A stretch of 64,000 nt of DNA from Selaginella tamariscina (taxonomy: Eukaryota; Streptophyta; Lycopodiopsida; Selaginellales; Selaginellaceae), in assembly GCA_003024785.1 (NCBI GenBank), contig PUQB01000201.1, positions 290,519 through 354,518 on the forward strand. Direction: 5' to 3'. Every line of letters begins with the position of its first letter. Position 1 is the first letter of the stretch. Shown piece by piece: positions 7,851-39,480 of the stretch. Below the pieces are notes generated by a model. That model was not told where the DNA came from and did no database searches. It was given only the letters and a program-made list of their open reading frames with translations. The translations under genes were made by a program, and so were the position numbers.

Positions 7851-8900
7851 GGAGCAGACTTGCAATGGTCCAATCGGAATGCTCCTATTCGGATTGGACC
7901 TCATTATTTCTTGACTCAGCCAAGGGATCATCCATCACCTTAGCTTGAATTCATTGTCAATTTGGGCACTTAACAATTTGATATTCATCCTTACCACAAT
8001 ATAAACACAAGTTTGCTTGAAGACATGATTATCGCTTGGCTTGTGTCAATAGCCCTTGTGATTGAAGAACATCCACTTGCATCGGTTTGGTGTCAGAAGA
8101 TAGAGTAGTCGATAACTCTTGCACTATTGGAGTTGGAGTATGATTACTTGTTGAGAATGTTTTTCTTCACATCACTTAAAAAATCAATTGTCGCAACAAA
8201 ATGCATGAACAATAGCTTTGTCCAAAAAATTTAGGTCCTCAAGAGTAAATAGGAGATCCTTGACATCATCATGAAGGCTGTAATTACTTCATTGTTGAAG
8301 TGGAAGAACTTGGTTGCTATACTACTTTGTGGGTCTTAAAGTTTCAAATTTACAACTTTGAAGTTGTTCATCATTAATCACAGAGGGTAGCGTCGTCCTA
8401 ATTGATGTCGCATGAAAGTAAAAAAATCAAAAGTATATTTAGATGCTGCATGAGAACCTTGACATAGTTGTCGAAGCTTGATTACCGCTGTGCATTCACA
8501 ATTAAGATCACCAAAGGTAGCTTCAAAGGCTTAAAAAAACGTATTCCATGATTTCAAGAGTGATGAGTCCTTCTCAAGTAAAGGTGCAAACCACTTCATA
8601 ACTGCACTAGCGAGGAGTGTGCCTACAAGACCCACTTGTGTTATATTTCTAGTGTACTAGTGCAGGTGTAAGCGAAAGACCAGCTGAACCTAATTCATAA
8701 AACCCCAAATTGTGACCTTGGGCCATCAAACTTGATTGGTAAGCTGACTTTTAGTTCTAAATATGCAATGAAGATGATTGTCGATGTATATCCTATTGCA
8801 ACCGTTAATTCTCAAGTTGTAGCTACTGAAAATGTTGTGCAAGGAGTTCTGCATCGATAAAAGACAAATTAAAGAACTTGAAAGCTCAGAACTAAGAAAT
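7850..8900 (-). pseudogene. Gag of element B1 with altered zinc knuckle
   Basis: This is the region between the 5' LTR and protease. A knuckle-like CLYCGKDEYQIVKC lies at 7966-8007 with the C-x2-C-x4-x-x4-C spacing, but the His is replaced by Tyr, a change that needs one C-to-T transition. The rest of gag is too broken to read. Function would be RNA packaging. Confidence 0.55.
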
Positions 8901-8914
8901 GGAGAAGGATTCCG

Positions 8915-9210
8915 GTTCAAACTATTAAGAACTAAGATGAGAAGACATGAAACAAACTGGATTACAGAGATTAGAACAAAAGAAGAGGCTTAGCTTCTAA
9001 ATTGGTGTTGAACCAGAATGCTTAATCCTGATCATGTCCACTCTTATATCTATACGGAAAACCAAATTTGGACTTAGCTAATTTTAGTGACCCTTATTCA
9101 TATTCAAAGGCTTATCCTGGACTTGATTAATTTTAATGATCCTTATTTATATCCTTATCTATATCCTCATCCGTATCTGTATGCTTATCTATATTCTTAT
9201 CTGTGTCACA
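8915..9210 (-). repeat. 5' LTR of element B1 (approximate)
   Basis: Partner of 4104-4372. It ends near TCTGTGTCACA. It is clearly diverged from its partner, which implies an old insertion. Confidence 0.55.
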
Positions 9211-25450: not shown

Positions 25451-25866
25451 TTAAGCCTTATCTAATCTATAGGCTCGTGGGTCGTGCAACAGGGATAACC
25501 TTCAAAGGAACATTTTTGGAAAGAGTTAATCCGAAACAGTCGTTCATATCAATGTCCTCAAAACTCATCCCATCGGGCATCTCCCAATCGAAGCCATGTA
25601 ACAAGTTTGCCAACATAAACTGCACCATGGTCGTACCAAGCTGAGTCCCAGGGCAACCTCGTCTCCCAGTCCCAAATGGGAGTACCTGGAAATGCCGGCC
25701 CTGAACATCTATATCACCCTGCATAAACCTTTCTGGGTCAAACTTGAGGATCCTTCCAAGTGTTCTCATCTCTCCCAATCGCATATGCATTCACTATTGC
25801 CCTTGTTCCTTTGGGGATGAAATACTCGCCAAATTTACAGTCTTGGCTTGTTGCATACACAAGTAG
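25451..25866 (-). pseudogene. Cytochrome P450 copy, 3' part (last exon), cut by a transposon
   Basis: The minus strand encodes the C-terminal third: FGEYFIPKG, FDPERFMQGD, the heme loop PFGTGRRGCPG and a stop at 25451-25453. The part up to the Pro-rich loop after ExxR continues at 32812 on the other side of the Mutator-like element. A two-base deletion near 25755 (in the codons for the Asp-Pro-Leu-Lys before PERF) breaks the frame. Compared with the plus-strand paralogue it encodes the same C-terminal end but differs at several residues. Confidence 0.85.
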
Positions 25867-25925
25867 GGTCTCGGCGAAAAGGAGGCTCCGGCTCGGGAGG
25901 CTTCGAAATATTCTAGTATATTTGT
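25867..25925 (+). repeat. Left terminal inverted repeat of the Mutator-like element
   Basis: It pairs with 32750-32811. Shared blocks in order are GG..T..GCCGC/GGCG, GGAGGCT, GG.(C)CC/CTC.GGAGGC, then TCGAA(A)TATTCTAG. The repeat is imperfect, with small gaps. Confidence 0.75.
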
Positions 25926-26096
25926 GGATATCCGGGTATATTTTAGCATATTCTAGAATATTCTCAAGAATTTTTTTGATATAAGTTTTTTTAATATGCT
26001 GACTGGCTTAATATTTGCTGACCGACAAATAAATCATTTAAATTTATTATTATTTTTTTTAATACTTTATAAAAAAGTTTAATAAGTTACTATTCA

Positions 26097-26240
26097 AACA
26101 AAGCATTTTGATGTATATCATTTATCCTTGTAGCACGGGTCATGAACTCTATTGCAATTTACCAACAAACAAAGCATTTTGATGTATATCATTTATCCTT
26201 GTAGCATGGGTCATGAACTCTACTGCAATTTACCAACAAA
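26097..26240. repeat. 71-bp tandem duplication
   Basis: Two near-identical copies ('aagcattttgatgtatatca' ... 'gcaatttaccaacaaac') with period 71 lie between the transposase end and the left terminal repeat. They differ at two or three positions. Confidence 0.9.
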
Positions 26241-26266
26241 CGGTGGACCTCCATCTCACTGAGCAA

Positions 26267-29200
26267 TCACCTTTGTAAAAAGTATGTGACGTCTGGGTTT
26301 AAGCCAAGCACACGGTTGTAGATGAAATACATGTGTACACATGGGCTCCAACTTTTGCTCTTCTGAAAGGTAGAACAACTGCATGTAGGATAAGTACTGA
26401 TAGTCACCTTTGCAAAGTCATTTTCTACCGACACAACGAAAGCCTCCTTCCGTCCTCTAACTGTCATTTCAACATTTTTCACTGACCTAAAAACGTCTTG
26501 GCCTTGTGGAAATTCTTCTTTTGTTCCTTAGACATTTTTGTTGGAGTCCGGACCATGGCCCTTCGAAAGGTGGAATTTGTTGTTGATCCAGCTCCACATG
26601 GGTGATGGTGTTTTGTCCTTCTGACCATCATTTACTCTTCCTGCCATCCCCTATAAACCTTCCAGAACAAAGCCTGCATCCTGTAGTTCTCTGACCTCCT
26701 CACTTGTCAGCTTCGTTTCAATGAGCGCGGGCCAAACCGTTGGTGGTGTTGGAATCTTGACTGAAGAATTTTTTCGTTTGGCCATGTGAAACACCCTGAA
26801 TCTCTTAGGCAAAACCACATCATCTGTTGTACATACTCCTCATTCCCCAAGGCATCACTATACATTCGTTTTATATAGAATCCTGGTGCTGACACTCTGC
26901 TTGGATAACCGATTGGTTTTCCATACAGAGCAATTCCTTCCTGATTCATCCCCAAACACTTAACCTTACTAGATGCTTCGATTCGTCTGATGGCCCACTC
27001 TGTTTGTGCAATCTCTCTCTCCAAAACCTCTTCAAACTTTAACCTCTTTCTCCTGTTTTGGACCACTCGCTGTGTGAACGTCGAGCATCAGACTGTTCTG
27101 TTCCTCTGACTATTTTCTGACAGTTTGCACTTGAACGTTAGTGGTACTTGTGAACTCCGGGCTGGTCAAGTGTTCCTCGTCTTCCACCAGATTGATAATT
27201 GTTGATGGAGATACACTTTTCCCCTCAGAGAGTTTGCGATGCATTCTTTTCAACAAAGTTTCCTTCGAAGGACCTGACCCTGTATACCTCCCTCCTATTG
27301 CCGCTTTCACCTTTGCACTCTGTAGAACTACATTAGTGAGGTCTAACATGTTGCCTCTAGTAGTGGTACTCTTATGGCCAATCTTGCTCTTCTTCTCTCG
27401 CGTGAATCACTTCAGCATTGTTTGTAGTTGGAACGCTCGCGAGTCCTTCTTCTGTCATGTCTCCCAGTTCCACCATGGAGATGTGTCCTCATGCCTGATC
27501 CACCAAGATAGCCATGTCTTCAAAGCACGAATGTTTGATGCTCGTCCTTCCCAAAAAGACTCGAGAATTGTTAGTTGTTCTTTCTTAGATTGTTCATTCA
27601 GTGCTACAAGCCAGGCACGAGCAAGTTTCATGTGTTTTTCATGGTGTTCTTTTGCGATTCATTTCTTTGTCACCTGACGCACGGATTGCATAAAGTGAAA
27701 CAGACAGTTTCTTTCCCTTCCTTTCATCTTTGCTCCATTATTGAATACTTAGCGCAAGGCTATCCATATCACTCCAGCCTCATCCAACATAAAACCAGCA
27801 AAGTTTACATTCTCCAACCCTGTTTCTTACATACCTCTAGCATTGTGTTCAAGAATTTCAGCACTGCAACATTATCTTCGCGACACATATCTGCGTAAGC
27901 TATAGTGACCATGGATCTGACACTATAAGAGAGCATTAGATAACAAAGATTAGAAAGTGTTATGAAGAGTTTTACAACTTACAATGGGTCATAAAGGTGT
28001 ATTCCACAATATACGGTGTGTGTGGTCCAGAACAACCCATTGATCATGAAGGTCTCCTCCACTTTGACACCTTCTGATGTAGTCAACTCCTGAACCCGGT
28101 CCCTCAACTGTCATTTTGAAGATCAAGGCTGCTCCTCAGCACCATGCAGTTCCATCCTGGAACATGTATGACGTGAATGAAAGGTATTGGCAACTTTGTC
28201 TTTAGCTCCAGAAGACCCTTGTAACCCTCTCTAAAGTGTGTCTCCTTCTGTCTTGATTGTGTAATAGTCCCGAGTCCTAAAGAAAAGGTCATGTCAATGT
28301 GCCGAGATCTAAAGAAAAATACCTTTGATAATTTATAAGAGGTTCAAGTTTTGAGAGTAAACCAATGTACGAGACTTCTCCTCCTTCCTTGAAAAGTTCT
28401 TCAAAGATGAGTTCACGTGCAACTTGAAACTCAATCACTCGTTGATTGGTTTGCAAATTGCTTTTTACAGTTGTGACACTAGCTCTAGCACGTTGAACGT
28501 TTGAAGCTGACACTAAGGGGCTGACTGGATGCTAATGAACACCTCTGTGAATGAACAACCTTGTAAAAGAAATGTCGTCTGGCAAAATGTAGTACACATA
28601 AGCCGGACAAGTGTGCACTAGCAATGGCTCCTCTCCACAATGCTTACATTTCATGCCTTTTACTTTGCCTGACTCAGTTGTCTTTGCCTTCTCCACAACA
28701 CCCTTGAAGTGACATTCATTTGCTTTCTTCTCTTAAAAGCCAAGTAGGGGTAGGTGGATTGATGCATTTGAGATGTCCGACACATGAACTTTGACTGACT
28801 CGCACTGGAACATGCCAGTGTGTTGTGCTTGGGTGTGTCCAATGGTAGCAGCCATCCTTGCGATTCATCCCCAAGTACTTTCTGTGCTTTCTTTCTTTGG
28901 AGGAAGTTTGTAAATGACATTTTCATTGTATATATCCGGTAGTTTAGAGACTCATTTAACTTCAGAGAACCAATGAGATCCTTCCCTATCCTACATTTGT
29001 CTGCTCTTAGAAGACACACCAGCATGGATTCTCACGCTCCTTTGTCCAACCTGAACAACGGGCCCTTTGCCGGGCACAATGTGTAAAAGACAAACTGGTT
29101 TGATGCATTGCCTTCTGGTAACAACTCCACATCTTCTCCAGAACTCGCAGAAATGACATCAATTGAACCACATGTATACTGAACCAACAAGGAATGTTGA

Positions 29201-29294
29201 AAGCAATGTGAAGATCATGTTCAAACACAAAAGCATTTCCATCTTCATCGACTGGGAAATCTTTGTCAATGCCTTCATAGGTAACTCTGGCCAT
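26267..29294 (-). pseudogene. Mutator-like transposase with zinc-binding N-terminus and SWIM finger (broken)
   Basis: It would cut and join the element's ends in the nucleus. The start is probably ATG at 29292-29294 (MARVTYEG). Domains in order on the minus strand: an acidic N-terminus; a Cys/His cluster CKHCGEEPLLVHTCPAY ending IHRGVH (28550-28650), the FLYWCH/WRKY-like DNA-binding module found at the front of such transposases; then a DDE-type core with FMLDEAG (~27770) carrying a catalytic-type Asp and a Cys/His pair CLFHFMQ (~27700); TTNNAEVIH (~27410), equivalent to the Mutator TNNxxE region with its Glu; and the SWIM finger CSCSTF...CVH at ~26325-26385. A 60-bp GT-AG intron is likely at 27923-27982. 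In-frame stops occur at ~29030 (TGA), ~28530 (TAG), ~27750 (TAA) and ~27680 (TGA), plus frameshifts. Family call is good; inactive as it stands. Confidence 0.8.
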
Positions 29295-29299
29295 GACAA

Positions 29300-30440
29300 C
29301 AGCAAGGAGAAAGCTCGGTGGTTTAGGAAAGCAAAGCAAAAGATTAAACACACTCTCGTTCGCCAAAAAAAATTATAATCGTGATAATAAACGTGAACAC
29401 ACTTTTGTATATAATTAATTCTACGCTGCCCAGCTCATAGTGTTTTAATGCTATCCTCTCTAGTATCACGATGTAATTTAATTATTATCTTTTATGATAT
29501 GAAATATCTTCACCTTTACCAATTATTCACATATTTTAAATTAACCCAAAATTTTAATGCCACATTTATTCTGTAGGGTTTACTGTTTTCATTGTGGCTA
29601 GGGTTTTTTGGTAAATAGGGTTTACTAATTCCATTGCGGCTAAGGTTTTTTCTATATCAGATCTGATATATGAAATCTCCTCCAAGGGGCCGAGAGGAGC
29701 GGCACCATCCATTTCGAAATGATTCATGTAGCGCTTAAGTAAACCAGTTGAGATTTCTGTGCCGATTTAGATTGTCGGCACCTCATGCTCAGTCGGCATC
29801 CAAGGTTTGTTCAATTTCTTTTTTTTTTGATTTGCGGCTCACGTATCCATATCACAATGTATTTTTTTTTTATGCCAGAGTTAAAGGATCTTCCCATTTG
29901 TGCCGTTTAAGAGAGATGGCACATCCTGGCTCACGGTAGCCACAAGATCTGTTCAATTTCTTTTTTTTTTATTTGCGGCTTAAGTATCCATATCACAATG
30001 TGGTTTTTTTTTTATGCCAGAGTTAAAGGGTCTTCTCATTTGTGCCGTCTGAGAGAGACGGCACATCATGCTCAGTCGGCAGCCACAAGGTCTGTTTAAT
30101 TTCTTTTTTTTTTAATTTACGGCTCAAGTATCCATGTCACAATGTATTTTTTTTTAATGCCAGAGTTAAAGAGTCTTCCCATTTGTGCCATTTGAGAGGG
30201 ACGGCACCATCCTGGCTCAATCGGCATACATTATACATCATCTCATTTGTGCCGTCTGAGAGGGTTGGCACCAATTGGTCTTAGTCGGCAGGTTTCGCTC
30301 ATCGACTTTTCTGTGCCGACTGAGAGGGTCGGCACCATCTAGCCTGAGTCGGCAGCCACAAAGTTAGTCATCTTCAATTTTTGTTTTTCCTTTTGTCTCT
30401 GAATCAATTGACTTGTGTGTTTGCTTTCCAGAGTCTGCAA
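29300..30440. promoter_or_regulatory. Head-to-head intergenic region of the Mutator-like element
   Basis: The transposase gene leaves leftwards and the ParB-like gene rightwards from this ~1.1-kb stretch, so it should contain both promoters. The left half is AT-rich. The right half (29750-30360) is a tandem repeat with palindromes. No individual TATA box is asserted. Confidence 0.6.
29750..30360. repeat. Tandem ~142-bp repeats with six ~23-bp inverted repeats
   Basis: Three and a half units of about 142 bp share 'gttcaatttctttttttt', 'cggct.a.gtatccat.tcac' and 'atgccagagttaaag' blocks. Each unit carries one inverted repeat with arms GTGCCGWC and GWCGGCAC around a 7-base centre TGAGAGR. Copies start at about 29759, 29900, 30042, 30185, 30249 and 30313. 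Those at 30042-30064 and 30313-30335 have perfect 8-bp arms. Spacing is 141, 142, 143, 64 and 64, so the last units are shortened. Confidence 0.85.
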
Positions 30441-30441
30441 A

Positions 30442-32742
30442 ATGATGAGAGCTTCAAAACATCTACAAGAGCTTGTGCCTGATGAAGAGCCATGGGAAGA
30501 GAAGAAGATATCGAAGCACAAGCGAGGAAAGAGAGGAGAACCATCTAATGTAGCAAAGGAGGATCCTCCAGTGACTCAGCCTCAAGTAGTACCAGTTGAG
30601 CAGGAGCAGCCTCCATCAACCATCACAGCTTTCCCAGAGAGCTCATCGTAGTTGCCTCCTTCATTCGCTGAGGTTGCAGTCCTGAAAGAGCAAGTGTAGA
30701 TGATAGAGGCAGTTGAAGCTCTTTCTTCTTTTAGCGAGGATGACTTGGAGGAGGCAGTCAGCAAAAAGAGAGGTCGTGGGAGAGCTGATCCAAAAGGCAA
30801 GAAGGCGAAGAGCGATAAGGAGCCAAAAGAGTTATAGCATATCAGCTAGCCTGCATTTGGAGAGCTCAGCGAACCTACTCTACAAAATTACTATCAAGGG
30901 ACTTGGTGATCTTCCTAATGTGCTAATCTGTACAATGCATTCGAACGAGGTGGTTCGACGAGTGAACCCAAGGGACTTGGACATGTGTGGTGTCATCGTT
31001 GAAGAAGGCTGGTTATCTATGCAACACAGCCTTGTTCATTCTGTCCATCGGAGATCCACTCACTACTGAGGAGTTATCAAAGCTGTCGAAGGACACGGTT
31101 CAGTACGAGCAACACCGGTCTTTCGAGCAAGCTCTTACTCAACCGAAGTACAAACAATGGGCTTCAAGGCTGTCAAATCGGAAGTTCAGCTACTGGGACG
31201 GGAACCATAGGCTACAGGCTTTGCAGAAGCTCTACCGGGAGGATTCAGAGAACAACCAACAATGGGTTATTCGTGTTCAATTGAGTTTCATCTCCACAGA
31301 GAACCTCAACAATCTTCAACTGGTTTCGATGTTCCAATCGATAAACATGTGAGTATTTTCTTTTCTTTTCGTTAAGAGTCTAGAGTTACAGTTTCAATGA
31401 ATATATCTTCAGTAACATTTATGGAAACAACACTACCACATATTTTCCTTGTTGTAAAGACGGTCTGCACTAGTACTAAAGGAACTCAGAAAATCCTCGA
31501 GTCACTGATAGAGGTTGATCATCTTGAGGTGCAGAAATGGAAGGAGAGTGCAACAGGAAAGGTGGCTTGGCATTCTCTTCTGAACTTGATCTGTGCAAAG
31601 ATTCTTTTCAAGGTAACCTTCAGTTTGATTGATAGGAAAGAAGTTTTTAACTTATTCTATGTGCAAAACGAGATCGACGATGATCTCGACAGAGCAGTCA
31701 CGAGTGCTAAAGGCAATCCATAGCTTGAACTGAACCTGAAGCATCTGGAGTATAAGAAGCATGACAAGCGTATGCACAAGTTCCTCTCTATCATAGACCC
31801 AGAGTTGGGGGAGGAGTGGTTCCAGAAGGTGACGAACATCTCTCATAAATAGTGTCACTAGATGGGCATTGAGAAGTTGTACACGATGTCAAAGGTGAAG
31901 ATTTTAAACATGCTGCGACTCCGATACTTGAACAAGCTCACTTGTCTCGAATCGAAAGCAGAACAACAGACACTTGGGCTACTAGGCATGCAGGACAAAG
32001 AGTGGATCAAATGGTTCACCTTGGACTTGTATTGGAAGGTTGTGCACGAGGAAGCCATTCAGATCCTTAAGGACTGCGAGAGGATGGTGAAGAAGTTGGA
32101 ACGGATGTCGACTTCATGAGCTGGTTTGACGAGATGTGCACTCGCTGCAAGTGCCTGGTCTTTCAGCCCTTCCATGATTGCATACGGTTCACTTATTCAA
32201 TGGAGCCGAATGAGTTTCTGGAGCATGAGGAGTCTGTGCGTCGGATGATATGGAGGTAAGCTTTCATTCTAGCATTGTTACTAACTAACTTTGTGTTACA
32301 GTTCATACTAGTGAAGAAAATGGCACCGTCTTAGATGATGAAGCTGTGGACAGATCATACAAGCGAGCCTCACATGTGGTTAAAGAGCAGAGGAGCTCTA
32401 ACACCATTCGAATGCGAGCATGTTCCATTTTGGCTCGACTGTCCGTCGCAGCAACCACCAACTTGGGAGAGCTCACTGTTCGACGTGCATGCAAATGATC
32501 TTCCAGCAATTATTTGGGAGCCGAACGAAGTAGAGGCTATCAAGAAAAGTAAGATGGTGCAAAAGACATCTACACCTGCAAAGGCATCAGGAGTGGGACC
32601 AAGCTCTTCTATAGCACCTCTGTCGACAATCAACTTTACACTCAATGAGGTGCAACCACTTGGACATCAAGGACAACCTGAGGACCTTCATCCCGAACTG
32701 GCTGCATCCCGTGGATCTAAAAATTTGGCCTCAGTCTGCTGA
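30442..32742 (+). pseudogene. ParB/sulfiredoxin-like accessory gene of the transposon (broken)
   Basis: The proposed start is ATG at 30442. The N-terminal ~130 residues are charged and low-complexity, with a basic KKRGRGR stretch like a nuclear localisation signal. The middle (30950-31350) reads RRVNPRDLDM, then GVIVEEGW, then YWDGNHRLQALQKLY with Asp-Gly-Asn-His-Arg at 31197-31211. The spacing 'position-defining segment, SI/GW-type loop, G-x-H/R-R-x-x-A helix' is that of the ParB N-terminal (ParB/Srx) fold, which binds or hydrolyses nucleotides and in some relatives cuts DNA. A GT-AG intron fits 31349-31412. The C-terminal 700 bases encode a Lys/Glu-rich and then Pro/Ser-rich tail. In-frame TAG stops lie at about 30649, 30697, 30836 and 30851, with a frameshift near 31015. 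Its role in the element is unknown; possibilities are a DNA-binding helper or a copy-control protein. Confidence 0.65.
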
Positions 32743-32749
32743 CCCAAAA

Positions 32750-32811
32750 GAATATTCTAGAATATTCGAGCCCAGGCCTCCTGGGCCCAAGCCTCCAAAA
32801 TGGCGGCACTC
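32750..32811 (-). repeat. Right terminal inverted repeat of the Mutator-like element
   Basis: Partner of 25867-25925. The gene running rightwards ends at 32742, almost in contact with this repeat. Confidence 0.75.
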
Positions 32812-33860
32812 CACAAGTAGAAGGCCTGGAGCATGCAACCATAGTGTCTCCTTCGTTACTGCTGCAAGGTACTTCAAATTCTCAAGGTGCTCCTCTCTGA
32901 CCATGCCATCTCTTCCAACTATAGTATCAAGCTCGTCTTTCACCTTTTTCATTGCTTCTGGCTCTTCAAGAGCTCGAAGATTGCCCATTCCGTAGTTGCC
33001 GAGCTTGTATTTGTTCCTCCAGCAAGCAAGTCCTGGGAATACGTAATGTAAAAAATATACTTCTATACGTACTATTAAAGCAAAATATATACTACAGAAT
33101 GAAAGATTTCATGGCAACATCTGAGTTACACACTTGGTTGTTAGCAAGCATGATCGTTATGAAATCGTTAAACTTTTCAGGGTTACTATGGTCTCATCAA
33201 GCTGCTTCTGGATGTACTGATCCATATGCTTTAGGTAGTAGTTCATCATAGACACCTTCTTTGAGTCTAGCCATCCCAGCCAAGGAACATGATCTCCCAA
33301 ATAAACATCTCCTATTGCTTTGTGAATAAACACCTTGTACGTCCATGCCTGAAGCAACTTATTATCAGAGAGACACATAAACACACAAACACACACCTCT
33401 TCATCTTTTCCTGCATAATAGCTCTTGCTCATGATCATCTGGGTCATGGTGTTAAAAGTGAGATCCGAGAGAATATCCACGAGGTTAACGACTTGTTTAG
33501 TTCCTGAATAATCCAAAAGTCTAGACATGGTTAAGTGCATCTCACTAGACGCTACACGCTTAGGTGAGAGCATCTCCAAATTGCAAACCTTGCGCAGGTT
33601 CCTCCATGTTTCTCCGTAAGGTGACCATATTACTCCATTATGATTGTACAAAATTACCCTCTGTATATAGATTAAACCTTGATGATCGATTATTGAGCTT
33701 ATTATATATAATAGTATGTATGTATGTACATAAATACAAGCATATTAATGCTAGCAGTTTTACATACACACGTGCAGGGCATGTAACATATAAGTGCACA
33801 CACATATGTACCACTACAGCAAGATTTGGCCGGGTCGAGAAGATAATATCATCTTCATCT
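32812..33860 (-). pseudogene. Cytochrome P450 copy, 5' part (exons 1-4), cut by a transposon
   Basis: Reading right to left: the end of exon 1 (IIFSTRPNLAVV at ~33830), exon 2 (ILYNHNGVIWSPYGETWRNLRK; seven residues after KRVA are missing relative to the paralogue), exon 3 (AWTYKVFIHKA, GWLDSKKVSM) and exon 4 (DLLAGGT at ~33030, then MVREEHLENLKYLAAVTKETLWLHAP). Introns sit at the same places as in 17535-19250. The coding frame runs into the transposon at 32820. Upstream of IIFSTRP the normal N-terminus is missing and a different sequence is joined in frame (see 33838-34048). Confidence 0.82.
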
Positions 33861-34048
33861 CTCAAAATTTGTGCATATGCCCATAAACCGAGCTCCCTCA
33901 ACACCTTCTCCATCTCCGCAGAGTATTCCCACCTTGTATGTACCAACTGCACTTGCCCCAATCTCTCCCCATCGGGAGGATTGACAAGCTCTCGACAATT
34001 TGTGTAGGCAAACAGCCTTTCTTCGCCCACATCTCTCTCTCGTAGCAC
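33838..34048 (-). pseudogene. Unrecognised coding-like segment fused to the P450 exon 1 remnant
   Basis: An open minus-strand frame starts at 34048 and reads through about 60 residues unlike any P450 (including GERLGQVQLVHTRWEYSAEM and KVLRELGLWAYAQILRDED) straight into IIFSTRPNLAVV. The normal exon 1 (membrane anchor and LPIIGHLHLLG) is absent. The amphipathic, charged segment looks protein-like but I do not recognise it. It could be chance reading through unrelated DNA placed there by the rearrangement that also brought in element A2. Confidence 0.4.
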
Positions 34049-34479
34049 ACTGTAAAACCCTAGATCTACACTCTCGGTTCTCGTGCACTACCAGGAAGAG
34101 AATATACCCGTCAAATCAACATAAATAATATTTCATGCAATGTTCTCCTGCGATATGTACTTCCTTACTTTATTATTGTTCACCATTCCTTCAATTTCCT
34201 CTTCTTCCAATGTTTCTAACTGCATCACTCCTTCTTCCTTTATAGATTTAACCCGAAAAGGGCCTATCCACTTCAAATCCAACTTCTGACTCATTTCTCC
34301 CCTTACCTCTATACCACAGGACTAAGTCCTATTCCTTTATCTCCTTTCCTTTTCTTTTCCTATTGAGTCAGGCCTTCCTTCTCCTTTGATTCGCCTGTAT
34401 TGTCTATAAGGCGTACATCCTTAACTCATCCAACTTCTCTAACTCTATCAAACGAGTTGTTAAAGAATCCTTCTCTCCC

Positions 34480-37400
34480 ATATTACACTATAAACTATTC
34501 GCAAGGATGGCACAATATACTCACTCCATCGGAGTTATGGCCTCTACTCCATATGCGAGCTTAAAAAGTGTCATGCCTGTAGTCACTTTATAGGCTATCC
34601 TATAGGCCTAGAGAACTTCTAGTAACCTTTCGTCCCAATCCTATTGATTATCTTGAGCCACCATCCTTAAAACAGTTTTAAGGACTTTATTTTTTGACTC
34701 AGCCTGCCCATTACCTGTGGGTAATATGATGTAGACTTCTTATACTTTATCACAAACTCCTTCATAAGCATTTCTATCGTTTCATTCACGAAATGTTTTC
34801 TTCTGTCACTCACAATTTCCTTAGGAATACCATAACATACTATTATGGTATTATATATAACCTTTCTGTATTGTATGCATCAGCCTTTCTCATAGGCTCT
34901 GCCTCTACCCATTTAGTCATATAATTTGTTAAAACCAATATGTATTGATTCCTTTTTGAGCTCACAAGATTAATTGGTCCTATAAAGTCCATTCCTTATT
35001 TCTAAAAAGGTTTTAGTGGGAGGACTGGATTATAAGGTTATCTATTTCTTTGGAGGCAATTGTGCACGTTGGCACTTATCACATGCCTTACAATAGCTGG
35101 CTACCTCTCTTAATAAGGTAGGCCACCATAGTCCCACTTGAAGGATCTTCCTTCTTGTTATTCCTCTGCAAAATGGCCTCCTGCAAGGCCTGAATGAGCC
35201 TCTTTAAGAACCTCTGGGACTTTTGAAGGCTCTACACACCTTTATAACACACCATCAGATCCCAATTTATATAATTTTCCTTCCATGAGAGAAAAGTGTC
35301 ATGTCCTTATGACAAACAACTTCCTTTTATCTGCTGTCCTATAAATAGGCAGTACTGTTCTAGTGGCTAGATATTATTTTATATAATCTAACCACCTTAA
35401 TGGAACAAATAAATTTGCATCAGGAAAATCATCCATAGCACGAATAGGAGCTTCGCCTGTTTTGATACAACTTAAATGGTCAGCCTGTTCATGCTGCCTT
35501 CCTGGTTTATGAATTATTTCAAAGTTATATTCCCGCAGAAGTAAAAACCACATGGCTAACCTTCTTGTAAGGACCGGTTTATTAAGTAAGTATAGTAAAA
35601 CTTTATGATCCACAAAATTTTTAACTTTATTAGCCAAAAGATAGTGTCTAAACTTATGGATAGCGTATACCATCCTTAATGCTTCCTTTTCTGTAGTGGT
35701 ATAATTTACTTTCGTAGGTGTAAGTCTACGACTAGCATAATAAATGGGACGATCCTTCCCATCCTTTTGTATCTGTGTAAGGACAGCTCCTATAGCCATA
35801 TCAGAGGCATCTACTTGAACGTGGAATTCCCGATCCCATTTCGAACTAACTAGTATTGGAGCCTTAGTAAGAGCCTTCCGAAGCTGGTCAAAGGCCTCTT
35901 GACACTTTAATGTCCATTCATATGGTACATCTGCCTTTAACAAATATGTTAAAGGTTTTGCAATTTGAGCATAATGCTTAATTAATCGCCTATGATAACC
36001 TATTTTGCCTAAAAATCTCTGTAATTCCTTTATATCTTGTGGTGGTTGTAAACTTAGGATAACCTTAACCTTATCTTAATCAACCAATATACCTTCCTTA
36101 CAAACAACATGTCCCAAAAGGATTCCTAACTTAACAAAGAAGTTACACTTTTTTGGATTCAAAGCAACCAGATTTTGCCTACATTTCTAGAAATATTTTT
36201 CTAGACAATGTAAATGTTCCTCTTTCGTGATATAAACACTGAAATCATCCATAAAGACTTTCATATAGTTTAAAAGGTATTCCGAAAAAGTATCTGTTAT
36301 AATCTTTTGAAATGTAAAGGTTTTGTTACATAAGCTAAAAGGCATGACCCTATAGGCATATGCACCCCACGGACTTATAAAAGCCGTCTTATGTTGATCT
36401 TCCAAAGCTACCATCACTTAATTATATCCTGAAAAGCCGTCCATAAAGGAATACATTTCATGCCCAACAACATTATCCAGCATTTCCTCTGTAAAAGGAA
36501 TAGGAAAAGTATCCTTAGTTGTTACATCATTTAACTTCTTATAGTTTATAAATACTTTTAGTTTTCCATTTTTCTTAGGAACAATTACAAGTGGTGATAA
36601 CCATTGTGCTCCCTGTATAGGATATATAAAGCCAACTTGTAACAACTTATCAATTTCCTCTTTAACCAACTTTACATAATTAGGATACATCCTATATGCA
36701 TTTTGTTTAGCCGGTTGGCATCCCAGCAAGGGTATGCCTTTAAAATCCTAGTAGGACCATGCAAATACATCCTTATACTTTTCTAACAATGTCAATCCTT
36801 TATCTTTAAAATCAGGATCTAATCCTTGAGCTATAGTCAACACCTTAGGTTCCTATTCTGTTCCTATATTGACTTGCTCTAAAGGATCATTAGTATAAAT
36901 ATAAGTGTAGTTTGCAGGTTGTTCCTGTAGGTTCATTTCATAAGGAATCGACTTATAAAATTTTTCCTGTAACCCCAATTGATCCTCTTGCTGTACCTGC
37001 TGGGAGATTTTCCTCTTTTCCTTCACAATTGCATACAAATCAATTTCCGTAAAGGCTTTCAGATCAGGATATGTTTTTAAAATTTCCTCTTCTTCCTTAT
37101 CATCTAAGCCATGCATCCAATCATATCCTTCCAATGCAATTGGTCTATCCTTCTTTGCTAGATATCTCTTAGCATAAGTATAGATATCCACTTTCATATC
37201 ACCTTGTCCTATTGTCATTTTTCCTGAGCCCTAATCCTGCACAACGTAGGCAATCTTAAGCCAAGGTTAGCTTAACAACATAGTATATGTAGCGTCATGT
37301 CCTTCCATTCGTAGGACTATTAAGGATATTTTAAATTTAAGTCCTTTCACGAATATAATAACTGCTCTCACTATACCTAACAGCCTTACACTTTGTTGTT

Positions 37401-37749
37401 CGGCCATTTTAAGATTAAATGGGACAGGTTGGATTGGTCCTAAACCCATCCTTTTATATTCACCTTCTTTAATAAAATTCACACCTAAACCTCCATCTAT
37501 TAACACTCTCTTTAACTTATTCCTGCCCACATATATTGTGATGTAAGGAACCTGTCCATCATAATCACCTTCATACAGTACTTCCTTATCCATTTTATAA
37601 ACTGTATATCCTTCACTTGAAGGTGATGTTTGCTGAACCAGACTTAATGCATTCAATATCTGATTTCTTATGTAAGGAGCTACCTGTATCAACTGTCCAA
37701 GCGTAACCTTTACCTCATGATTTATAGCTTGATGATACATGGAGTCCAT
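34480..37749 (-). pseudogene. Pol polyprotein of element A2 (protease, RT, RNase H, integrase), broken
   Basis: The protease frame 37749-37267 has TIYVGRNKLKRVLIDGG, where the usual Asp-Ser/Thr-Gly has become Asp-Gly-Gly, as in several plant gypsy lineages. RT pieces: 36729-36418 (VIVPKKNGKLKVFINYKKLN) and 36417-36187 (SPWGAYAYRVMPFSL, then the active site FMDD). RNase H, 35943-35374, keeps the first catalytic Asp (VQVDASDMAIGAVL) and ends with HKPGRQHEQADHLS. Integrase is recognised by CHACDKC-like zinc-finger remnants near 35080 and STSYYPQ at ~34730. Frameshifts and stops separate all pieces; non-functional. Confidence 0.8.
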
Positions 37750-37899
37750 TGTCTTATCATGTAGTGGTAAAACTGAAAAACCTTGTTTACCTTTGTCTAC
37801 ACCTTCTAATTCGTTATCAGTCTGACCTTTTCGGTTAGAATCCTGCTCCTGCTCATTTACATTTTCTTATAACAAGCTCTCCTTCTTGTTAGGAATAGT

Positions 37900-39480
37900 A
37901 ACTACCTCTCCTTCTCCATAATAAGAGGATTCCTTCTCATTCCTTTAAAGAGCTATAACTGCCCTTGCAACGGGTGGATACTCATCTTTTTCTTCTTTTA
38001 TTTGAATTAGCCGTGTTGTAGGCTGCACATTAGTCATCCTAATAGAAGTAGAAGGTCGTACATTCCGCCTAGGACATTCCCTAGAGATATGTCCTGTATA
38101 ACAAACCTAATAAAAAAAATTCCTACTTTGTGGTTCTTGTCTATCATTAATCTGATTATATTGCTCATTTCTACCTCTTTGACCTTGATAAGGTCTTTCT
38201 TCTCCTCTATATTGTTTACCATTTTTGTCTTTTAGGATCTATCCTTCTGTCGTCCATTGTATGGACCATTTCTTTCTCCATAATATCTATCCTCTCTATT
38301 TTTGTAAGGAACATCATTCCTTCTCTTATAATATCCAAAGTTTCTATTCTGATAAGGAACTTCATTTCTTCTGCCATATGATATATTATTTATGTTCTCA
38401 TAAGAAATAACATTATCATTCCTGTCATTCCCATGGTTCCTATTAGGTGGGAACCTTCTAGGAGGTGGACGTTCCTCCATTCTCCGTTCTTTCTCTATAC
38501 GAGCCACATTCTAGTTCAGGAACTGCCTGCAATTCTGCACCACAATCCTTCCTTTCCACATATTTGGCACGTAGGCAGTTGTAACCTACATTCCTCCACT
38601 GTATGGCTAGGATTATTATATTTAGTACACCATACTTTTGCCTTTATCTCCTCCTTAACTATCATTCCCTTCAAAGTTTTCATCATTTGAGCCAATGGTT
38701 TCTCATTAAATATTTACGAACCTTTACTACATTAGCTTCCTCCTTTTCATCAAAGGATTCTTCATTTCTTCTATATACTTTCAACTTTCCTTTTGCAATT
38801 TTTTATCTACCTTTTTTCTTCTGATATATTTTTAAATGAGTAATGAGATCCTCTATATCCTTTTCATTAATAGTGAGTGCTAAATCTTTATATGGTTTTA
38901 GCAACCTTTGCTTATACTATTGCAATAAGGCATCCTCCTTTACATATGCCTTACATTTTTTCTCATGTTTCTTAAAACGATGTGTATATTCATTTATCTT
39001 TTTTATTTTGCCTTGAAGGATGGTTCTTAACTTCTCTAAATGTTCCTTTAGCAATTCCTTCTTTCTAAAATATTCCTTAAAAGCCTCAGTAACCTTTTGA
39101 TAATCCTCTCTGACATCCTTTTCAAAATCATAATACTAATCAGAGGCATTTCCTTTCAATGTATGTAGAAATATAAACAGCTTTTCTGCATCCGTCGCCT
39201 TATACAGTTTTACTACCTCTTCAAACTATTGTAAATGTCTTTTTGGATTCTCCTTCTTTCCTGCATAGAATGTGGGATACATCATCGTACCCCCAAATAT
39301 TCCTGGGAAAAGTGCCATATTTAAATAATCCTTTGCTCTGGTGTGTTTCCTCTTACACCTTCCTCCCTTCCTCTCTGGGAGTTCTTAAGAGATCCTTCTC
39401 TTTGCAATCTCGGTATATGAACAAGCACTCCTTTCCTTCCTCTCACAGTTTCCTCTAAACCAGCTGTTTGATACTACCTC
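37900..39480 (-). pseudogene. Gag of element A2 (broken)
   Basis: Second copy of 600-2120. The first knuckle region is retained near 38590-38630, but the second is damaged: about a dozen bases encoding its central part are missing near 38095. Arg/Asn/Tyr-rich linkers are readable at 38232-38507. Confidence 0.65.

Follow-up and report, generated by a model that had tools for sequence, protein, structure and literature searches.

The WDGNHR gene of the 64,000-nucleotide stretch analysed here (the window) is real. It is the decayed 5' part of the accessory gene (gene 2) of a plant transposon that has two genes and is probably Mutator-like. Comparison with intact copies in the same genome suggests that the gene 2 protein is very likely a fusion of a ParB/sulfiredoxin-like domain and a methyltransferase-like domain. 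The gene lies divergent from a transposase gene in two transposon families (A and B), and both families share arrays of a short site in their non-coding parts.

Gene structure in the window and in intact copies

The window contains a decayed and internally deleted copy of the family-A transposon (25867..32811, 6945 bp), which aligns to the copies L009-L028. It is flanked by an exact 9-bp target-site duplication, CACAAGTAG (left, 25858..25866; right, 32812..32820). The right terminal segment (32749..32811) is 95% identical to positions 9024-9087 of the copy L011. In the left part of the element, an exact-length 71-bp tandem duplication (26095-26236, 97% identical) was also observed.

The preliminary description had placed a plus-strand gene inside the element. 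A coding remnant was found there (30442-32717, plus strand, with an ATG at 30442), beside the divergent transposase gene and carrying WDGNHRLQAL. Mapping from L011 gave the structure of the remnant. Exon 1 (30442..31348) is decayed and encodes the N-terminal basic region and the ParB/sulfiredoxin-like domain (approximately 30917..31290, with WDGNHR at 31194-31211); intron 1 has 56 nt (31349..31404); exon 2 (31405..32255) encodes a conserved middle region without a known fold; intron 2 has about 46 nt (32256..32301); and an exon 3 remnant follows (32302..32717), the rest of which, including the methyltransferase domain, is deleted. The basic stretch, the in-frame RRVNPRDLDM and the DGNHR at 31197-31211 that had been described are all present. 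However, GVIVEEGW was an out-of-frame reading, and the intact copies read RLVSSLKKAGYLRNTALFIL at this place. A GT-AG intron had also been proposed; the introns are real and intron 2 keeps both GT and AG, but intron 1 keeps only its GT donor, as its acceptor AG is mutated in the window.

The window copy of gene 2 carries frameshifts. Its alignment to L011 jumps from 7960 to 9024 at 32717-32749, and this deletion of about 1.1 kb accounts for the missing C-terminal methyltransferase part. The window gene differs from L011 by 238 substitutions, of which 143 are C>T or G>A in the window copy; deamination of methylated cytosines (host silencing) would leave such an excess.

Less decayed copies, to which the preliminary description had looked for the gene, were searched for in the same genome (300.7 Mb, 1391 contigs). 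A first look with the WDGNHR exon gave 1334 candidates, and each of the 150 that were scored (the window copy among them) matched with 83-100% identity. Twenty places picked by hand among the exon matches served as the family-A sample. In the alignable copies, the full element is about 8.3 kb long and has the ends GGGTCTCGGCGAAAAGG...AATGGCGACACTC. Gene 2 is spanned by 18 of the 20 copies (not by L021 and L024) and has four introns of 46-56 nt each. By pattern, all 18 aligned copies have intron 1, and 14 of the 18 have all four introns; L018, L019, L020 and L027 failed for the fourth. GAACAG was chosen as the intron 1 acceptor because it is the sole candidate that joins the long open frames; GTAAAG and CACTAG fail to do so and were dropped. 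When the 14 copies were spliced and translated, an intact 1010-aa frame was open in two of them (L009 and L011); the other 12 contain stops or frameshifts. The intact protein consists of a basic N-terminal region, the ParB/sulfiredoxin-like domain with an insertion, the conserved middle region, and the C-terminal methyltransferase-like domain, in this order.

Transposase gene and element class

The transposase gene of the window is a frameshifted remnant on the minus strand, divergent from gene 2, with approximate limits (26300..29294) set from its frames and an intact counterpart. A SWIM-like C-x-C-x12-C-x-H region was located near 26330-26400 on the minus strand, with a SWIM score of 16.9 bits. 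The same pattern is present in the unaltered L011 reading, which scored 17.3 bits; the Pfam cut-off is 19.6. No Pfam match to the MULE transposase domain was found for the transposase pieces of family A or B. Exact 9-bp target-site duplications, a feature of Mutator-like elements, flank the window copy. Among ten copies with both ends, a script found exact duplications of 8-10 bp in three, one with one mismatch in one, and none in six. The Mutator-like class given in the preliminary description is thus weakly supported, by the duplications of some copies and the SWIM score below the cut-off and not by a MULE match; the element is probably Mutator-like.

None of the four family-A copies examined has an unbroken transposase exon set. 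L010, L011, and L013 have a common frame break before the last long transposase exon; at this place the frame continues in the window copy and in family B. Many transposase exons of family B are open over at least 600 aa.

ParB/sulfiredoxin-like domain

For the ParB domain, nothing reached the threshold in the Pfam, NCBIfam, PHROGs, and PDB profile searches; the best Pfam match of the window exon alone was ddrB-ParB (E 0.19). A query profile of three rows (A, B, and the window) was aligned by hhalign with a target profile of 12 ParB domains from 10 phage loci, which were chosen among 60 listed of 793 records. The whole domain scored 30.0 (prob 39) over 46 N-terminal columns, and the best of 200 column shuffles scored 20.7. 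Without the 42-aa stretch before WDGNHR, which was taken out by a choice made after the first alignment had been seen, the score was 36.3 (prob 79, 70 columns; best of 200 shuffles, 22.6), and both landmarks came into register. The WDGNHRL of all three rows aligns with the GHtR of the phage ParB profile, which agrees with the G-x-H/R-R motif that follows the N-terminal helix region in this superfamily. Crossed controls gave prob 1.2 for the ParB part against the methylases and 0.2 for the methyltransferase part against ParB. The ParB/sulfiredoxin-like identity that had been proposed is supported by the comparison with phage ParB domains (0/200 shuffles) but not at the thresholds of the four profile searches. 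These alignments point, with high probability, to a ParB/sulfiredoxin-like domain with an insertion.

Other searches were also performed. A single-sequence AlphaFold model of window positions 30966-31349 (pLDDT 50) was too poor for use. With the read-through segment as query, phmmer matched dipeptidyl-peptidase III in the PDB (E 0.0013); this match was dropped, and the family profile did not reproduce it (0 matches in the PDB). Neither the read-through protein of the window nor its ParB region nor the intact 1010-aa protein had a match in a collection of 5.8 billion proteins; for the read-through and the intact protein, scoring covered the roughly 7990 candidates with the most shared words. 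No relative was found by tblastn in viral and prokaryote contigs.

Methyltransferase-like domain and motif IV

PF01555 (N6_N4_Mtase) matched residues 916-971 of the family-A protein with 36.0 bits, and family B with 38.9 bits (cut-off 26.7); the match covers only the C-terminal quarter of the Pfam profile. The A+B domain profile also aligned with phage methylases; the alignment takes in 62 columns within the SAM-binding half (prob 97.6, E 3e-12). The phage profile was built from six of the nine methylases read, those with a readable DPPY-type motif. For six phage methylases, the annotated genes include no ParB part; three of these six are in the profile. Among solved structures, MboIIA is closest in sequence (E 4e-4). 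These matches identify the C-terminal part of the predicted protein as a beta-class N6A/N4C DNA-methyltransferase-like domain.

The motif-IV half alone gave prob 2.5, and one of 200 shuffles was as good; it aligns under DPPY. At this position DLPN, not DPPY, was found in 29 of 29 readings from both families, namely those with recognisable preceding residues among loci L001-L041, some of which overlap. The consensus motif IV, (D/N/S)PP(Y/F/W), is absent from gene 2 of families A and B, and for this reason the domain was filed as methyltransferase-like. Since DLPN is without the usual second proline and the aromatic residue of DPPY, catalysis is doubtful; an active gene 2 methyltransferase seems somewhat unlikely. 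The phage methylases L042, L045, and L046, which are outside the profile, have DVPY or DIPY as motif IV.

Second family and conservation

When the genome was scanned with PF01555, 739 candidate places came up; each of the 150 that were scored exceeded the cut-off. The matches that were read belong to family A or to the second family, B. The family-B copy L041 has the same layout of divergent transposase and ParB-methyltransferase genes as family A, with frame breaks in gene 2. The identities between A and B within gene 2 are 58% in the ParB part, 62% in the middle part, 51% in the motif-IV part, and 75% in the SAM part; those of three transposase pieces are 58-85%. In all segments tested of both genes, pS (0.70-0.94) is well above pN (0.09-0.33), which shows that purifying selection has acted on both genes.

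Among the family-B loci listed, 141 of 150 are identical over 134 aa. Family B is very young, and the element is abundant and recently active. Eight of the 150 transposase rows, at 82% identity, were assigned to family A and left out. The remaining 142 family-B transposase places have a ParB exon in at least 100 cases, a methyltransferase exon in at least 89, and either of them in at least 123, at the expected divergent position; 19 are without a partner among the matches listed.

Shared sites in the non-coding parts

One copy of each family (L012 for A and L041 for B) was split by eye into left end, transposase, intergenic part, gene 2, and right end. Of all 8-mers, TGCCGACT/AGTCGGCA alone occurs in every one of the six non-coding parts, and it is in none of the four gene parts. 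The counts of TGCCGACT in the left end, intergenic part, and right end are 2, 15, and 1 in family A and 1, 19, and 1 in family B; the central array holds 15 of 18 sites and 19 of 21 sites, respectively. In 500 dinucleotide shuffles of the six parts, no 8-mer was shared in any; this speaks to sharing and not to repetition, because shuffling breaks tandem repeats. In family B, the sites form a 22-bp palindrome, CCCAGTCGGCATGCCGACTGGG, in steps of about 40 bp. Genome-wide, CCCAGTCGGCATGCCGACTGGG has 1092 exact sites, and its reversed control has 0. Among the matches listed for nine contigs, CCCAGTCGGCATGCCGACTGGG sites lie beside a listed ParB/methyltransferase exon on eight; on the ninth (C13) none is listed.

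In the window, the repeats and the site list define an intergenic tandem array (29758..30364) with 12 TGCCGACT sites within one mismatch, five of them exact. The whole window has 16 such places, five exact, and 12 of the 16, including all exact ones, are in this array. A left subterminal site with one mismatch is located at 25997..26004 on the plus strand.

Comparison with known systems

Plasmid ParB-parS partition systems combine a ParB domain with palindromic sites arrayed next to its gene, and the transposon likewise has a ParB-like domain and a palindromic array near the gene. It differs in that we know of no ParA and no partition role for it. The phage fusions L048, L049, and L050 also have an N-terminal ParB domain followed by a beta-class methyltransferase. 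However, these proteins are 384-409 aa long, have an intact DPPY, and are without the middle region and introns.

Another counterpart in domain content is the accessory protein of the Ectocarpus element Sola1-1_Ec32. In the accessible text of PMC12477816, its ParB-like and N4C/N6A DNA methyltransferase domains are in one protein of 1104 aa (1010 aa for gene 2), whose gene and the transposase gene are on opposite strands, as in the present element. The same text cites like proteins in green and red algal transposons (Iyer 2011, Petroll 2025). The Ectocarpus element belongs to the Sola1 transposase superfamily and to another host group, and the likeness is that of the published description. For VANC of the Arabidopsis VANDAL elements, which are Mutator-like, the accessible part of PMC5735166 reports binding to short motifs in non-coding tandem repeats, upon which cytosine methylation is lost. 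VANC is also the second gene of a plant element with a short motif in tandem repeats of its intergenic and terminal non-coding parts, and TGCCGACT is such a motif. However, that part of the article names neither a ParB nor a methyltransferase domain, VANC removes cytosine methylation, and the likeness is one of element anatomy, with a different protein. A table of Mutator groups in PMC6446971 includes extra ORFs (PMD, SET, ovarian-tumour, and others), and "ParB" is absent from the main text. ParB-methyltransferase proteins of Mutator-like or land-plant elements were not found in the literature searched, a search with most subscription papers outside it. According to these partial sources, ParB-methyltransferase accessory proteins are known from algal transposons, and the present analysis extends them to a land-plant, probably Mutator-like element. 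The shared 8-mer arrays add candidate target sites.

Possible role of the gene 2 protein

The gene 2 protein might recognise the TGCCGACT arrays between the divergent genes and near both ends; from the sequence features, we consider such binding about evenly balanced. Recognition of these sites would set the copies of its own element apart, as VANC does for VANDAL, and the methyltransferase-like domain would modify or occupy the array DNA. As an outcome, the element might be kept active despite host cytosine methylation, or expression and transposition might be coordinated. As a whole, a sequence-specific self-recognition protein for anti-silencing or self-marking, comparable to VANC, may be the best explanation, and we give it an even chance; the anti-silencing or self-marking role, which is by analogy, is put forward more tentatively. 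The helper for DNA binding or copy control suggested in the preliminary description is plausible.

A bolder reading seems rather unlikely: a land-plant transposon lineage might use a prokaryotic-type self/non-self marking of DNA, with a ParB-type reader of parS-like palindromic arrays and a methyltransferase-type domain. This domain would write a mark other than 5-methylcytosine, or would have become a reader of it, and escape from host cytosine methylation would have led to a burst to more than 100 identical copies.

These proposals depend on the identity of the domains and on which protein binds the sites. That the N-terminal domain is not of the ParB/sulfiredoxin fold, with a coincidental WDGNHR and only the methyltransferase assignment sound, might be argued from the lack of a match at threshold in any of the four profile searches (ddrB-ParB being the best Pfam match of the window exon), and from a full-profile score that comes from the 46 N-terminal columns. 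This is improbable: both landmarks are in register without the 42-aa stretch, with 0 of 200 shuffles as good, and the order of ParB and then methyltransferase recurs in the phage fusions and in the Ectocarpus element as described in the accessible text. It is less probable still that gene 2 is a captured passenger without a role for the element. Mutator-like elements often carry captured genes, but the gene has the same place and orientation in two families, shows purifying selection, and is linked to the transposase in at least 123 of 142 places. The conservation and this linkage led us to reject the passenger reading.

A catalytically dead methyltransferase fold has a precedent in METTL14, the partner of METTL3. 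Gene 2 might thus encode a DNA-binding regulator or transposition cofactor with a dead fold, which would bind the arrays for control of the divergent promoters or assembly of a transposition complex. The DLPN in all 29 readings of both families would fit this, as would arrays located in the divergent promoter region common to the two genes and close to the two ends. Against it, no part of gene 2 is as well conserved as the SAM-binding half (75% identity from one family to the other), suggesting that cofactor binding matters, and the DVPY or DIPY of three phage methylases indicates that motif IV tolerates some change; this reading is possible, with odds clearly below even. A similarly low probability is given to the transposase as the protein that binds TGCCGACT, with gene 2 acting elsewhere, for example by unspecific methylation of the element. 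Transposases commonly bind repeated subterminal sites, and sites do occur near both ends; but most sites of both families are central and not terminal, and palindromic sites suit a dimeric ParB-type reader. Self-recognition by the gene 2 protein would be directly testable, since very young copies in one genome make binding, DNA modification, and anti-silencing accessible to experiment. The system also matters to the question whether 6mA or 4mC is produced by an enzyme in a land plant, if only locally on a transposon. Two diverged families have kept the altered motif IV, and one may ask whether the methyltransferase fold is non-catalytic or redirected.

Insertion sites

The window element is inserted in an exon of a cytochrome P450 gene on the minus strand, which it splits into 25467-25857 and 32821-34087 (Pfam p450, E 1.3e-7, 33160-33744). 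The P450 frame reads through the joined empty site; stops further on in this frame show that the P450 gene itself is decayed. The insertion site of the family-B copy L041 (G000:C639:37600-47200), from its flanking frames, is in what we take to be a Ty1/copia-type coding sequence. Farther along the window, minus-strand open frames at 34100-38500 presumably belong to a remnant of a Ty3/gypsy-type polyprotein.
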